Virus record (IMG/VR): IMGVR_UViG_3300049791_000030
Location: 1-51,862 of that record
Source: a virus
Strand: one strand, 5' to 3'
DNA length: 51,862 nucleotides
Shown here: positions 2,195 through 44,507 of the stretch, in pieces
How positions within the stretch are numbered: position 1 is the first letter of the stretch
Layout: the number at the start of each line of letters is the position of its first letter
Notes under the pieces: model-generated
Database searches by the model: none
What the model was told of the DNA's origin: nothing
Seen by the model: the letters and a program-made list of their open reading frames with translations, nothing else
Program-made: the position numbers and the translations under genes

Positions 2195-2995
2195 ATGGGT
2201 GGTCATGCTCGTGGTTTCATCGAAGTAGTGGATGGTGTTGAAGTGATTCAGCCCCGTAAAAAGACTCGTCGCACAAGGCAGGGTGGGAAACCAGAAGCAA
2301 CAGTTAGCACTGCGAAGTTTAAAGAGGAGCGGGAACACGTTCAAAAGTTGGCACCACTGAAACCAATGAATGAAAAACAAGCTGAATACATTCGGTTGCT
2401 CATTGAAAAGGATATGGTTATAGCGACAGGACTGCCGGGCACATCGAAGACCTTTATCCCAACTATGATGGCTTGTGATTTGTTTCGTTTGGGTAAGATT
2501 GATCGCATCATTTTTAGTCGTCCAAATATTTCAAATAGTAAGTCGTTGGGTATGTTCAAAGGTTCTGCTGAAGAGAAGATGACTCAATGGCTTGCACCGG
2601 TAATTTCCATCCTGAACGAGCGTATTGGTGTTGCTGCACTTGAGATTGCTTTGAAGCACGGACAAATTATTTTCCTCCCGCTCGAAACGATAAAGGGGTT
2701 CAGCGCAGAATCCTGTTGGTTCATACTTGATGAGGCCGAGGATATCTCACGAGACGAAGCTAAAAAACTCGTAACTCGCCAAGGAAAAAACTGCAAACTT
2801 ATTCTTGCCGGTGATGTGGGACAGAGCGAGTTAAATGAACATAGTGGTTTGCGTCATTTGACAGATATGGTTCAGAAACATCCACATCTTGATGTTGGAT
2901 TTGTGGACTTCGATAATATTAATGATATTGTGAGGAGCAAACAGTGCAAAGACTGGATCATCGCATATCGTAAGGAAGAGAAAGGAGAGGTTTAG
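2195..2995 (+). CDS. PhoH-like ATPase
   Basis: 266 residues. Walker A GLPGTSKT (79-86), Walker B FILDEAED (176-183) and a GDVGQ motif (206-210) identify the PhoH family, P-loop ATPases related to superfamily 1 helicases and very common in phages. The N-terminal 50 residues are basic and phage-specific (RKKTRRTR), possibly nucleic-acid binding. The role in infection is unsettled; RNA or phosphate-stress functions have been proposed for the family. ATG preceded by GAAAGGAAA. A gene for a putative homing endonuclease follows with a one-base overlap. Confidence 0.9.
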   Translation: MGGHARGFIEVVDGVEVIQPRKKTRRTRQGGKPEATVSTAKFKEEREHVQKLAPLKPMNEKQAEYIRLLIEKDMVIATGLPGTSKTFIPTMMACDLFRLGKIDRIIFSRPNISNSKSLGMFKGSAEEKMTQWLAPVISILNERIGVAALEIALKHGQIIFLPLETIKGFSAESCWFILDEAEDISRDEAKKLVTRQGKNCKLILAGDVGQSELNEHSGLRHLTDMVQKHPHLDVGFVDFDNINDIVRSKQCKDWIIAYRKEEKGEV

Positions 2996-3771
2996 TGGGT
3001 ACATTTCTAACTACTGTAAAAGCTGGGGATAAGTTCAGGACTAATGAGGGATACGAGATTGAAGTTCTTGAATACCAATCTTATGATAAAGTCAAAGTAA
3101 GGTTCACTGAAGAGGATAATTGCGTAAAATACTTTACACTTAAAAATATCCTGCGAGGTAGTCCTAAAAATCCATATCATCCGGTTGTGAGGGGTAAAGG
3201 TTTTATCGGAGAAGGTCCACATAAGTCAAAAGTACGGGGAAACAGTAGTAAGACAACAGCCGAGTATGTACACTGGTCTAGTATGATGACAAGGAGTTAC
3301 TACGAGGAGTACCACCGGAGGTTTCCTACCTACATTGGGTGTTCTGTTGAGGAACAATGGTATAATTTTCAAGAGTTTGGAGAGTGGTGTCAGTGGCAAC
3401 CCGGCTTCAATATGGGATATGTACTTGACAAAGATATAATACTACAAGGGAATAAGGTTTACGGGCCAGAAACTTGTGTCTTTATTCCCCCAGAGCTTAA
3501 TTCTATTATTGTCACACAAGTAAAACCGGGTAAAACTGTCCCTGCTGGCATTTCTTTCCAAAATGGTTGCCAGAAGTATATCGTATCTTGTGCTATTGAC
3601 GGGAAGAATAAGAATCTTGGTAGGTTTGCATGTCCAGATGAAGCCTTTAAGGTTTACAAAAGCTTCAAAGAAGACTTGGTAAAAGAAAGGGCTGAAAAGT
3701 ACAAAGATACTCTAGATGTACGTGCCTATCAGGCGTTTATGAATTTTACTGTACCGGAGATGGCACTATGA
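2995..3771 (+). CDS. Putative homing endonuclease (LDK-GN-Y family) with AP2-like C-terminus
   Basis: 258 residues, GTG start overlapping the PhoH stop. The centre carries the pattern W..M..R, then C.V...W..F..F, then LDKDI..GN..Y.P..C..IPP..N (about residues 86-165), the layout of the phage His-Me-finger/AP2 endonuclease group. Residues about 195-230 (YIVSCAIDGKNKNLGRF, then DEAFKVYK) resemble an AP2 DNA-binding domain. It sits between PhoH and ClpP-like genes with overlaps on both sides and no visible disruption of either. It is similar to the protein at 48890-49573. Nuclease activity is inferred. Confidence 0.7.
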   Translation: MGTFLTTVKAGDKFRTNEGYEIEVLEYQSYDKVKVRFTEEDNCVKYFTLKNILRGSPKNPYHPVVRGKGFIGEGPHKSKVRGNSSKTTAEYVHWSSMMTRSYYEEYHRRFPTYIGCSVEEQWYNFQEFGEWCQWQPGFNMGYVLDKDIILQGNKVYGPETCVFIPPELNSIIVTQVKPGKTVPAGISFQNGCQKYIVSCAIDGKNKNLGRFACPDEAFKVYKSFKEDLVKERAEKYKDTLDVRAYQAFMNFTVPEMAL

Positions 3772-9342: not shown

Positions 9343-9539
9343 ATTATGACTACACTAAATCTCTAGAAGAACTCTTCAAAATGTTCATTGTCTTAGCTAA
9401 ATCTAATGGTATGGATGTGCAGTTACATGATAAAGTAGCTCAATACTTTGATAATGTAGATACACAAGCGGCTTTTATCTTGTTCACAGGTGCGTATTGG
9501 ATGGGGATTAAGGATGCTGATAAGGAGAGGTGGTCATGA
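9339..9539 (+). CDS. Hypothetical protein
   Basis: 66 residues from the ATG at 9339 (ATGA overlap); helical, with an aromatic C-terminal part. No family recognised. Confidence 0.6.
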   Translation: MNYDYTKSLEELFKMFIVLAKSNGMDVQLHDKVAQYFDNVDTQAAFILFTGAYWMGIKDADKERWS

Positions 9540-9697
9540 GTGATGGTAAACAAATAATCCTAGACTTCCTCACTTGGGCTCGATACAGTAAGAGTGTACA
9601 GCTACAAGAAATGCCTGAATGGACAGAAGATTATTGTTGTGTTGATGAAGATCAATTAATTGATGATTATTTAGAGACGTTAAAGGAGATAGTGTGA
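9536..9697 (+). CDS. Hypothetical acidic protein
   Basis: 53 residues, ATG overlapping the stop before it; ends in an acidic helical segment. Its stop overlaps the GTG start of the PhaZ-like gene, so both are probably co-translated. Confidence 0.55.
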   Translation: MSDGKQIILDFLTWARYSKSVQLQEMPEWTEDYCCVDEDQLIDDYLETLKEIV

Positions 9698-10527
9698 ATA
9701 TTCAGACGGTAGTTCTGGGCAACCAAACGATACGGGTGTGTATTAAGCCCGGTAAGGCTGGCACTATACCATTGCTCTGTTTTAATGGGATTGGTGCTGG
9801 GTTGGAGTTGTTAACACCTTTTGTTGAAGCGTTACATGAGTCAAATCCTGATCTTGAGGTAATAACTTTCGATGTGCCGGGTTGTGGTGGTAGTTCTACA
9901 CCTACTCTCCCATACCGCTTTAGTAGCCTAGCACATACAGTTACTCAACTTCTAGATTATTTGAACTATGCACAAGTTAATGTACTAGGCTTATCGTGGG
10001 GTGGATTCATAGCTCAACAGTTCGCATATGACTTCCCTCACCGAGTAAAGAAACTAATTCTGTGTGCCACAGCTACAGGAGTCACATCAATCCCACCCAG
10101 CATGAAAGTACTTTCCCTGATGGCTTCTCCTAGACGCTATACTGATCCTGCCTATATGGCTGAGATTGCTCCACTCATCTACGGCGGAAAATTCAGAACA
10201 TCCCCTGAGTTGGCAACCAAATATGCAGAGAAGATGTCAGCTAACAAGTCTGAAAATAAAGCTAATGGCTTAGGGTACAAGTTTCAGCAGTTGGCCATTT
10301 GTTGGTGGAGTTCGTTGTGGATGTTACCAATTATCAAACAACCAACACTTTTGTTGGCAGGCGGTGACGATCCTATTATTGATGTACGAAATATTGAAAT
10401 TATGAATAAATTAATTCCCAACTCGGAGCTTCGTGTGTTTGAGACTGAGGGGCATTTATTCCTCCTCACGAGTCTGGAAGAGGTTGTTCCGATTGTTGTT
10501 GAGTTTTTGGAGGGTGGTGAAGTATGA
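9694..10527 (+). CDS. Alpha/beta hydrolase resembling intracellular mcl-PHA depolymerase PhaZ
   Basis: 277 residues, GTG start coupled to the gene before. Alpha/beta-hydrolase triad visible: nucleophile Ser101 in GLSWGG, Asp225 (or Asp226) in LAGGDDP, His254 in EGHLFL; the oxyanion loop is FNGIGAG. Beyond the fold, several stretches match what is known of Pseudomonas PhaZ: FDVPG.GGSSTP, PYRF, QVNV.G.SWGG..AQQFA, MASPRRY, IYGG.FR..PELA, and the triad spacing is almost the same as the published Ser102/Asp221/His248. PhaZ cleaves medium-chain-length polyhydroxyalkanoate in cytoplasmic granules to hydroxy acids. Substrate here is inferred; another esterase activity is possible. No PHA synthase or phasin gene is nearby. 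Confidence 0.82.
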   Translation: MNIQTVVLGNQTIRVCIKPGKAGTIPLLCFNGIGAGLELLTPFVEALHESNPDLEVITFDVPGCGGSSTPTLPYRFSSLAHTVTQLLDYLNYAQVNVLGLSWGGFIAQQFAYDFPHRVKKLILCATATGVTSIPPSMKVLSLMASPRRYTDPAYMAEIAPLIYGGKFRTSPELATKYAEKMSANKSENKANGLGYKFQQLAICWWSSLWMLPIIKQPTLLLAGGDDPIIDVRNIEIMNKLIPNSELRVFETEGHLFLLTSLEEVVPIVVEFLEGGEV

Positions 10528-10892
10528 GGGTTAGGTGTCAGTGTGGAAAGATTGCAGGATACTGGTATGGCCCTATTATCTATCGGAAGCTTAACTTTGA
10601 ACAATACCTAAACAACCATGCATTCTGTGAAGAACATGCTGATACAGACAATTGGGCTGAATACCAATATGTGGGATTTCATAAGAAACACTGGAGATGG
10701 CTGAAGAAGAAAGAAACTGAATTGTATTTGATTGGAAGGAATGAAAGATTGTCCTTACCATATTATGATGTGAGTCATGTTAAAGAAGATGGAGTACGTT
10801 GGGCACTTGGGAGGTATCACAGTATGGAGAGTGTTTTGAGGGAGACGGAAGGTTTGGATTATGTTGAAATTAAAGAGGTATGGTATGAGTAA
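10524..10892 (+). CDS. Hypothetical protein
   Basis: 122 residues, ATGA overlap with the PhaZ-like gene. Starts with a CQCG motif and is rich in Trp and Tyr; a second Cys and His lie at about residues 34-38, so one metal site is conceivable. No family recognised. Confidence 0.6.
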   Translation: MRVRCQCGKIAGYWYGPIIYRKLNFEQYLNNHAFCEEHADTDNWAEYQYVGFHKKHWRWLKKKETELYLIGRNERLSLPYYDVSHVKEDGVRWALGRYHSMESVLRETEGLDYVEIKEVWYE

Positions 10893-11457: not shown

Positions 11458-11482
11458 TAGAGATAATTAAAGTTGAGTGCGT

Positions 11483-12475
11483 ATGGCTAATTTGAAAGGT
11501 TTGATTGAAGATGGGGTAATGAAATATGATGGATTTGAAGGAACCACTTATGGAAATCTAACTGTTGTAGGTTGGAATGGTAAATCCGGCAATCCTAAGA
11601 AATATATCGTTTCTTGTTCTGTATGTAAAGAAGATCCTGAACTACATGGTGAGGGGTTGTTTGCTATGGCTAAAGGACACTTAGATAGAGACTGTAAACC
11701 TTGTGGTTGTACAGATAAACCAAACTGGACAGAAGAACAATATAGGATAAGAGCAAGACGAGCTTGTGAACAGAAGGGTATCACTTTTAAAGGTTGGTAT
11801 CTAGGCTTTAAGGGGTCTAACTTTACAAAAGTAACATTAGAATGCCCTGTACACGGGGAATACTCCGGCCCTTTACTTTGTTTTATACTAGGGAGTAGTA
11901 GACAAAGTGGTTGTATGGGTTGTAAAGCTGACAGCATGGGCAACCTAAAGAGGAAAGATGATGAAGTAATGATTAAAACATTTATGTCTTCGGGAGGTTT
12001 TGCAGAAGGAACTAAGTTTACACGAACAGACACATTAGACAAATATGGACATAAGAAGTATTGGTTAATTGAATGCCCCGAGTGCAACACTTCAGGTGAA
12101 GCTCATATGGTAGGTCTATACAAAGGGAGTAGACCTTGTGCATGCGCTAATAGTAGACCACAAGAGACATATATTAATCTTCTTAAGGATGGTGAAGATG
12201 TGGTTGCAATCAAGTTTGGAGTAGCTAATTTATCACATGAAAGGCTTAAAACACAACACTCTAGGTCTGTATATCAAATAGAAAACTATGGTGTATGGAG
12301 CTATCCAACTATCATGGACTGTAAGAGTGCTGAAAGAACTTGTATGCACTCAATGGAAACAGGAGTTATTAGTAAAGAAGAAATGAAAGATGGTTATACT
12401 GAAACTACTTTCCCCTCAAACATTGATCTAGTGATTAGTATCTTTGAGAGGTATGGTGGAACTAGAAATATCTAA
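11483..12475 (+). CDS. Multi-zinc-ribbon protein with T5orf172/GIY-YIG-like C-terminus
   Basis: 330 residues from the ATG at 11483; a GTG at 11477 would add two. Three Cys clusters: C45..C48 with C71..C74.C76, C121..H124 with C144..C147, and C198..C201 with C219.C221, resembling repeated treble-clef zinc fingers. Residues about 228-310 (ETYINLL, IKFGVANLSHERLKTQH, then SAERTCMH) resemble the T5orf172 branch of the GIY-YIG nuclease superfamily. A putative mobile endonuclease is the best guess. It is the last gene of the plus-strand block and is followed by a terminator and a long gene-free interval. Confidence 0.6.
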   Translation: MANLKGLIEDGVMKYDGFEGTTYGNLTVVGWNGKSGNPKKYIVSCSVCKEDPELHGEGLFAMAKGHLDRDCKPCGCTDKPNWTEEQYRIRARRACEQKGITFKGWYLGFKGSNFTKVTLECPVHGEYSGPLLCFILGSSRQSGCMGCKADSMGNLKRKDDEVMIKTFMSSGGFAEGTKFTRTDTLDKYGHKKYWLIECPECNTSGEAHMVGLYKGSRPCACANSRPQETYINLLKDGEDVVAIKFGVANLSHERLKTQHSRSVYQIENYGVWSYPTIMDCKSAERTCMHSMETGVISKEEMKDGYTETTFPSNIDLVISIFERYGGTRNI

Positions 12476-35236: not shown

Positions 35237-36149
35237 ACTCCTACTGATCGATGCGGATACGATCCTCTATGCAGCAGCCTCACAGCAACAAAATAACCAA
35301 TGTCTAGCTACAAATATTGCACAACAACGCACAAAGCTCTTCGAGTCTAAGACTGCGTTCAATGAATGGGCTAAGGAGAACAATCGTGATAAGTCAAACT
35401 ATTCATTTGAAACAATAAGTGAAGTAACTGGTGAACCACGATTTGCTTTCCATACAATCAAACAAAAGATTGATAATATTGTTGAAGTCAGTGGTTGCAA
35501 AGATTACCGTGTATGTATTCAAGGTGAAGGAAACTTCCGAAAGTTCTATGAATCAAAGTTTGTAGATTATAAGGGACAACGTACTGCGAAACCTCTGTTG
35601 TTTGCTGAATGCTTTGATTACATGGAAAAGAAATACAAATCAAAGTGTATTGTGAGCACTGGTCAGGAAACGGATGACTATGTTAACATCGTAGCTTGGA
35701 ATGCTTTAAAGGAAGGTACGAGTAAAGATTTGGTTGTCTCGTATTGCGATAAAGACATCACAGCAAATGGGCAAGGGCAGTATCTTAACTACAATAAACT
35801 TGATAAAGGTGTGTTCTGGCAAGATGAAAAAAGTCAGTACATTGAATATTGGACTCAAGTAATTTGCGGAGATTCAGCAGATAACCTGATGGGACTGGAA
35901 GCAGTTCACAAAGATACTAAAGAGAAGTATGGAATCAAAACGAATGGTGCTGGTCCTGTAGCTGCAACTAAGCTTCTAAGTGGTGTTACATCGGAGAAAG
36001 AAGCCGCTGAAAGGGTGATAGAGGCATACTCCTTGTCATGGCCTGAAGATTGGTTTGAACGCATTTCAGACAACGCTTTCTTCCTATACTTACGGCGTAA
36101 AGAGGGTGAAATGTTCAACTTTAAAGAGTATGTGGCAGGATTGGCATGA
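35229..36149 (+). CDS. 5'-3' exonuclease, T7 gp6-like (FEN/PIN fold)
   Basis: 306 residues from the ATG at 35229, which overlaps the end of the preceding gene. Metal-binding motifs of the FEN family: LLIDADTILY (5-14), QETDDYV, VSYCDKDI and ICGDSADNLMGL. It would remove RNA primers and degrade DNA ends during phage replication and recombination. Size and operon position match T7 gene 6 equivalents. Confidence 0.85.
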   Translation: MSKLLLIDADTILYAAASQQQNNQCLATNIAQQRTKLFESKTAFNEWAKENNRDKSNYSFETISEVTGEPRFAFHTIKQKIDNIVEVSGCKDYRVCIQGEGNFRKFYESKFVDYKGQRTAKPLLFAECFDYMEKKYKSKCIVSTGQETDDYVNIVAWNALKEGTSKDLVVSYCDKDITANGQGQYLNYNKLDKGVFWQDEKSQYIEYWTQVICGDSADNLMGLEAVHKDTKEKYGIKTNGAGPVAATKLLSGVTSEKEAAERVIEAYSLSWPEDWFERISDNAFFLYLRRKEGEMFNFKEYVAGLA

Positions 36150-36676
36150 AGGAACCTTGGCTCAACTACCCACACATCTGGCCTACTAAAAGTTCTTTCC
36201 TTAGTTTTCTGCGTGGTGGTATCAGGCGTGCATTATGGAATCGTTCACCAATCAAGCTTGAGTTTATTAAGAAATACAGACGTAAGATTAAGAACCCCAA
36301 CCCAAAAGGGAAAGTGAAAGAGGTCTGGGGAGGCACTTGCAATCTTTGTGGTGATGAGTTTCCAAGTAATCAATTGAACGTTGACCACCGTGAAGGACAG
36401 AATAGTTTGAGAGAACTTTCTGATTTACAATCTTTTATGGAAAGTATTGTACTTGTTCAAGAAAGTGATCTACAATTCGTTTGTCTGTCATGTCACAAGA
36501 TTAAGAATTTGCAGGAAAGAACAGGAGTAGATTTCGAGACTGCAAGGGTTGAAAAAGCTGTAATTGATATATGCAAAAAGAAACAAGACAAGCAGTGGCT
36601 CTTGGATAAAGGCATTACACCACTAGGTAATGCCAAACTAAGACGCCAACAAATTACTGAGGAGATGTTGAAATGA
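36146..36676 (+). CDS. HNH endonuclease with zinc site
   Basis: 176 residues. Zinc pairs Cys65/Cys68 (CNLCGDEF) and Cys113/Cys116 (CLSCHK) flank the catalytic LNVDH (His81). This is a classical HNH layout. Position between the exonuclease and small replication genes could mean a recombination (junction-resolving) function like the endonuclease next to gp6 in other phages, or a homing enzyme; both remain open. ATGA overlaps on both sides argue for a resident gene. Confidence 0.75.
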   Translation: MKEPWLNYPHIWPTKSSFLSFLRGGIRRALWNRSPIKLEFIKKYRRKIKNPNPKGKVKEVWGGTCNLCGDEFPSNQLNVDHREGQNSLRELSDLQSFMESIVLVQESDLQFVCLSCHKIKNLQERTGVDFETARVEKAVIDICKKKQDKQWLLDKGITPLGNAKLRRQQITEEMLK

Positions 36677-43802: not shown

Positions 43803-44507
43803 ATGGAAGACACCGAAATTTGGAAGAAGCACCCTTTAACGAACTATCTTATTAGTAATATTGGTAGAGTAAAGAATCCTAAAACTGGTAAGTTGATTAA
43901 GTGTTTTGTAAACCAACAAGGTTATCTTGTAGTTGCGAAAAGAGTTACAACAAGGGCTAGAGGTGTTCACCGGGCTATGATGGAGGCATTCTTTGGGGTT
44001 ATACCAGAGAATTTAGTCGTTAATCACAAAGACGGTAATAAGCTTAATAATGTACTCTCAAACCTTGAAGTCGTAACCGTAAGTTATAATACCCAACATG
44101 CATATGATTTAGGTCTAGCAAAAGGTAGGAGGGGAGAGGACAACCATGGCAGCAAAATCACCGAGGTTGAGCTTTTAGAGATGTACCAACTATTTGATTT
44201 GGGATATAATAATGATTATATAGGTGAGAAGTTTAACCTTCACTCCCGCTATGTATCATTAGTTCGCCACGGTAAACGCTGGAAACACGTTTATGATAGA
44301 GAAGGTAAAGTTTTCCCAAAATCATTTACTGTTGGTGCTTACTCTATTGTTAAGATAGTGCAGGCTTGGGAGCTTATTAAGATCGGAATTACAAATAAGA
44401 AGATTGCGGATGCTCTCCAGATGGAACCTAGTTGTATTTCTAGATTGAGATCGGGCGGGATTTGGAAGGATTTTGTAGGTTTCTACGAAGGTCGCTTGAC
44501 ACAATAA
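43803..44507 (+). CDS. HNH homing endonuclease (NUMOD4-HNH-helix-turn-helix)
   Basis: 234 residues, ATG behind GAAGGAGATTTT. N-terminal NUMOD4 (WKKHPLTNYLISNIGRVKN), then HNH motif with His56, N74-H75-x-D77 and Asn83 (VNHKDGNKLNN, then NLEVVT..YN.QHA), and two C-terminal helix-turn-helix repeats (about 116-155 and 185-222). Free-standing mobile endonuclease, inserted between the nrdA terminator and the next promoter without breaking either. Confidence 0.9.
   Translation: MEDTEIWKKHPLTNYLISNIGRVKNPKTGKLIKCFVNQQGYLVVAKRVTTRARGVHRAMMEAFFGVIPENLVVNHKDGNKLNNVLSNLEVVTVSYNTQHAYDLGLAKGRRGEDNHGSKITEVELLEMYQLFDLGYNNDYIGEKFNLHSRYVSLVRHGKRWKHVYDREGKVFPKSFTVGAYSIVKIVQAWELIKIGITNKKIADALQMEPSCISRLRSGGIWKDFVGFYEGRLTQ

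Follow-up and report, generated by a model that had tools for sequence, protein, structure and literature searches.

A gene of the Pseudomonas PhaZ depolymerase family recurs in unrelated phage groups and may open the storage polyester of their hosts

The window analysed here, a whole IMG/VR virus record of 51,862 bp, carries a phaZ-like open reading frame at 9694-10527 (+), which begins with GTG and encodes 277 aa. The features in and around this gene are listed below, with PhaZKT denoting PhaZ of Pseudomonas putida KT2440.

9530..9697, +, upstream small ORF of 55 aa, overlapping the phaZ start
9683..9690, +, Shine-Dalgarno-like AAAGGAGA before the GTG start
9694..10527, +, phaZ-like gene, 277 aa, intracellular PHA depolymerase family TIGR02240
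9781..9795, +, FNGIG loop, codons 30-34, including N31 (equivalent to the essential N35); corresponds to 34-38 of PhaZKT
9994..9996, +, codon of the nucleophile S101 (G-L-S-W-G-G), aligned to PhaZKT S102 (PMC12504323)
10087..10284, +, lid domain, residues 132-197, corresponding to 133-192 of PhaZKT; helical in the model
10243..10260, +, 6-residue insertion at the lid hinge, residues 184-189, relative to PhaZKT and just past its S184 position
10369..10371, +, codon of the catalytic D226, aligned to PhaZKT D221
10453..10455, +, codon of the catalytic H254, aligned to PhaZKT H248
10524..10892, +, downstream ORF of 122 aa with no assigned function, overlapping the phaZ stop (ATGA)
11477..12475, +, CapR-domain endonuclease (PF21817, phrog_681)

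The start codon is preceded by the Shine-Dalgarno-like AAAGGAGA, a good ribosome-binding site, and both the GTG start and its GTGA overlap with the stop of the preceding reading frame, described in a preliminary description of this DNA, are present at 9694; at the other end, the phaZ stop overlaps the next frame in ATGA. These two overlaps and this ribosome-binding site place phaZ in a compact block of small genes whose translation is coupled. A promoter scan at the window phaZ gave no more matches than chance. The GC content of the gene is approximately 0.41, as compared with 0.40 in the phage group to which the window belongs.

The encoded protein matched TIGR02240 (poly(3-hydroxyalkanoate) depolymerase, NCBIfam equivalog) with 312.9 bits against a cut-off of 250.6 (E = 1.8e-93), nearly over the full length of the profile (positions 5-264 of 276), and the runner-up family reached 92 bits. 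Eight viral representatives also exceeded the equivalog cut-off. The yardstick in these comparisons was a sequence taken to be that of PhaZKT. It scored 637.7 bits over the whole TIGR02240 model and had every checked landmark at its published position (283 aa, FNGIG 34-38, N35, S102, S184, YYWQLF 190-195, D221 and H248; PMC12504323), and thus was considered reliable. Its identity to the window protein is 54% over 261 positions, and N31, S101, D226 and H254 of the latter align with the essential N35, S102, D221 and H248. Equivalents of these four residues are kept in the 49 relatives scored (48 viral and one plasmid-borne), with one partial row lacking the Asp/His region. Deletion of FNGIG (residues 34-38) inactivates PhaZKT (PMC12504323); in the relatives scored NGIG is constant, and F is substituted in some. 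The preliminary description had proposed a triad of Ser101, Asp225/226 and His254: the serine and the histidine were borne out, and the alignment to D221 places the aspartate at D226 and not at D225. The signature blocks it had named were also found, namely FNGIGA (30-35), FDVPGCGGSSTP (59-70), MASPRRY (143-149), IYGGKFR (162-168) and GHLFL (253-257), and GLSWGG occupies residues 99-104.

In the phylogenetic tree, the viral proteins, P. putida PhaZ and a gene from a Pseudomonas silesiensis megaplasmid formed one clade (support 97/94), which stood apart from other bacterial TIGR02240-like proteins. Two Pseudomonas sequences were included, the plasmid gene and, as the one chromosomal PhaZ, the P. 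putida yardstick sequence; an earlier tree with a far outgroup had been set aside for its long branches. Membership of the window enzyme in the PhaZ family is therefore, as judged from score, alignment and tree, nearly certain, and the earlier reading of an alpha/beta hydrolase closely resembling Pseudomonas PhaZ agrees both with the equivalog score and with the 97/94 clade. The placement among esterases or haloperoxidases that would have spoken against that reading was not recovered, and identity as a general esterase or haloperoxidase was ruled out by the gap between the TIGR02240 score and that of the next family together with the tree. A second candidate, the scl-PHA depolymerase family (NF050089), was likewise rejected (60 bits, where the cut-off lies at 300). 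Its members, such as Bacillus PhaZ (PDB 8ynv), share with the window protein the alpha/beta hydrolase fold and the nucleophile region, but the identity to the Bacillus structure is only about 20%. The esterase/lipase phrog_789 and a few hydrolases in INPHARED are also phage alpha/beta hydrolases, but at ≤30% identity they are not PhaZ.

Structure prediction, which the preliminary description had suggested as a check, yielded with AlphaFold2 (32 sequences) a model with pLDDT 89 and pTM 0.90, in which an alpha/beta core bears a helical lid at approximately residues 132-203; the window protein is thus confidently predicted to be a lidded alpha/beta hydrolase. The nearest solved folds were esterases (6eb3, TM 0.85), Bacillus PhaZ being another match, and in a viral structure library no match exceeded 21% identity among the matches listed. 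The window protein shares with PhaZKT the family, the triad, the essential Asn, the FNGIG loop, the position of the lid and most of the signature blocks. It differs in being phage-encoded, in the 6-aa insertion at the lid hinge, in lacking the C-terminal tail and in the absence of phaC genes from the record. The FNGIG hinge is kept, whereas the second hinge reads YKFQQL instead of YYWQLF (2/6 identical) and is preceded by the insertion. The proteins of group A (the phage group to which the window belongs, see below) have this insertion and are missing the last ~16 residues of PhaZKT. In PhaZKT, the hinge change S184F nearly abolishes depolymerase activity and raises esterase activity (PMC12504323), so, given the hinge insertion and the lost tail, the substrate of group A PhaZ could have drifted from mcl-PHA.

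It is accordingly conceivable that the phage enzyme descends from PhaZ and has become a different esterase or lipase, acting e.g. on membrane lipids, surface esters or signal lactones. The modified hinge and tail of group A, the similarity in sequence and fold to general esterases of the PDB and the swap of depolymerase for esterase activity by a single hinge substitution (PMC12504323) are all compatible with such a change. Nevertheless, the TIGR02240 score exceeds the curated equivalog cut-off, the essential positions are all kept in group A as well as in groups without the insertion, and dN/dS is low, and we consider this explanation unlikely.

Besides phaZ, the window encodes PhoH, a ClpP-like protease, dCMP deaminase, primase-helicase, DNA polymerase, exonuclease, thymidylate synthase, ribonucleotide reductase and a tail fibre. 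Its group has seven related phaZ contigs, six of them with lengths of 81-93 kb, so the window is probably a fragment of a phage of ~90 kb. Its DNA polymerase is nearest (58%) to those of phiPsa374-like Pseudomonas phages (94-100 kb), its ribonucleotide reductase matches are mostly from Pseudomonas phages (62%), and the portal protein of group B is nearest to that of a phage of Pseudomonas poae, being also close to that of a P. putida phage, among others. No tRNAs that could serve as host clues were found. From the DNA polymerase and portal affinities and the clade shared with Pseudomonas PhaZ, the host of the phaZ phages is likely to be Pseudomonas. The window also has a C-5 cytosine DNA methyltransferase gene (631-1626) and HNH endonuclease genes at 2995-3771, 36146-36676 and 43803-44507, which adjoin the genes for PhoH, exonuclease and ribonucleotide reductase.

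With the single window protein as query, a scan of IMG/VR retrieved five relatives (76-77%). Scans with alignments extended these to 49 and then to 56 loci, with 54 viral contigs at 50-78% identity. Sorted by shared neighbours, the loci fell into four multi-contig groups that have no neighbours in common, one pair and about ten singletons; as the flanks compared were ≤10 kb a side, relationships among some of the singletons may have been missed. Group A, with the window, has a GC content of 40% and genomes of ~90 kb; group B has about 52% GC and longest contigs of ~48 kb, and its phaZ lies close to the major capsid gene and is encoded on the other strand from the head and tail genes; in one contig (L029) phaZ is followed by a terminator-like hairpin. 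A third group has about 58% GC, group D carries NinB, ParA-like and terminase genes, and further phaZ contigs are 228-307 kb long. One of the source metagenomes, 3300025728, is listed as US soil (PMC9703825).

Capsid, portal, head morphogenesis and tape measure proteins are encoded around phaZ, the contigs also encode DNA polymerase, primase, endolysin and thymidylate synthase, and terminase matches were obtained in 16 of the 28 viral records searched (the plasmid record giving a weak 17th). These genes identify the phaZ-bearing contigs as phages. Misassembly or host DNA might be suspected of a Pseudomonas-type gene in metagenomic contigs, some of which are short. Against this stand the conserved phage structural and replication genes that surround phaZ, the synteny between relatives with and without it, the absence of PHA synthase from the records and the GC of the gene, which follows that of its phage group over a range of 40 to 60%; such an origin is extremely improbable, and host-contig contamination was ruled out by the phage genes and the missing PHA synthase. 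The matches to the terminase large subunit run across in-frame stops in three group A contigs, L003 (72761-73840), L004 (50666-51865) and L022 (3512-4372), as if introns or insertions interrupted the gene. Two group B copies of phaZ, L033:2724-3518 and L040:2118-2909, have in-frame stops within the matched stretch, by decay or assembly error.

PhaZ was not found in the contigs of two close relatives, L092 (PhoH 97%) and L093, and phaZ-plus and phaZ-minus relatives are syntenic. Because close relatives' contigs are without it, phaZ is accessory and not essential in these phages. The median dN/dS of group A was 0.09 and that of group B 0.07, with synonymous sites near saturation in comparisons with the window; phage phaZ is under strong purifying selection. 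This selection, the matching GC and the presence of phaZ in ~90-kb relatives uphold the earlier view of an ameliorated phage gene not recently acquired. When group A was forced outside, to other bacteria, the topology was weakly rejected (p-AU 0.032). A single viral origin, as a clade of viral sequences only, was disfavoured (p-AU 0.015), the two Pseudomonas sequences being too few to count transfers; with group D left out, one viral clade was not rejected (p-AU 0.26). The plasmid sequence in the tree is an unannotated phaZ at L084:3974-4867, from the 1.17-Mb megaplasmid pPL1 of Pseudomonas silesiensis (NZ_CP143488.1). It nests in the viral clade beside group B, which suggests that phaZ has been exchanged between phages and megaplasmids; no PhaC was found on the plasmid.

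As a host-type metabolic gene inside virus genomes, phaZ is a probable auxiliary metabolic gene. PHA is stored under a surplus of carbon when other nutrients are short. Phage PhaZ would act at the surface of the polyhydroxyalkanoate granules of the host, where its lid would admit the polymer and Ser101-Asp226-His254 would hydrolyse the ester bonds, and 3-hydroxyalkanoic acids would be released. Host acyl-CoA synthetase and beta-oxidation could then convert these acids into acetyl-CoA, NADH and ATP for phage replication. In 29 phaZ-bearing viral records searched, no PhaC, phasin or AMP-binding ligase was found, the PhaC and AMP-binding searches having matched control genomes as expected and the phasin search only two controls, which makes it a weaker negative; the PhaC_N neighbour setting of Pseudomonas phaZ, which does not itself define the enzyme, was not encountered in any of the phaZ-bearing viral records searched. 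The phages thus appear to contribute the first, committing degradative step only and to leave the rest to host enzymes. Breakdown of PHA by phage PhaZ during infection is likely, and we infer PHA as substrate, a preference for the mcl chain length, a benefit to infection and a Pseudomonas host. On an overall reading of the sequence evidence, this auxiliary metabolic gene quite probably serves to mobilise the PHA granules of the host as a source of carbon and energy.

The gain from degrading PHA might also be other than carbon. PhaF is a granule-bound phasin and nucleoid protein, and the phage might profit from freed cell volume, from the release of PhaF or from preventing carbon storage by the host. 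A gain from a single enzyme and the absence of downstream genes would fit such a benefit; however, no sequence feature points specifically to it, and the route via carbon and energy is simpler and needs no extra assumption, so we regard it as very unlikely.

Auxiliary metabolic genes are a known kind of phage gene, the carbon-metabolism genes of cyanophages being an example. In common with them, phaZ is a host-derived, accessory enzyme gene under purifying selection that covers one key step of a pathway; unlike in these genes in general, the target here is a stored polyester. It is this target and the recurrence of the gene that appear to be new. No PhaZ was detected among 50,697 INPHARED records (isolated phages, August 2025), and no paper on a phage or auxiliary-metabolic PHA depolymerase was found in the open-licence literature. 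We incline, by a narrow balance, to the broader proposal that mobilisation of PHA is a widespread strategy, acquired repeatedly, among phages that infect soil and plant-associated pseudomonads. It would extend from tailed phages of ~48 kb up to jumbo phages of 300 kb and would have escaped notice because phaZ is absent from the isolated phages of the public collection. Storage polymers form a pool of carbon in bacteria that live in soil or in association with plants, and a phage enzyme that opens PHA would tie the nutrient state of the host to the success of the phage and to the release of carbon from bacteria in soil. The recurrence of one gene across unrelated phages makes the idea directly testable. 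Furthermore, the phaZ phages offer varied candidates for mcl-PHA depolymerases, which have been described as almost confined to Pseudomonas (PMC12504323).

Homologues of the CapR endonuclease of the window were located near phaZ in some contigs of groups A and B, which are unrelated phage groups, at the following positions.

L004:13746-14738, CapR homologue near phaZ
L025:406-1503, CapR homologue near phaZ
L028:1663-2634, CapR homologue near phaZ
L042:859-2034, CapR homologue near phaZ
L043:8782-9669, CapR homologue near phaZ

The linkage is loose, as in group B a CapR homologue accompanied phaZ at 8 of 17 loci and the distance between them varied, and hitchhiking with a homing endonuclease is a possible explanation for the proximity of CapR to phaZ.
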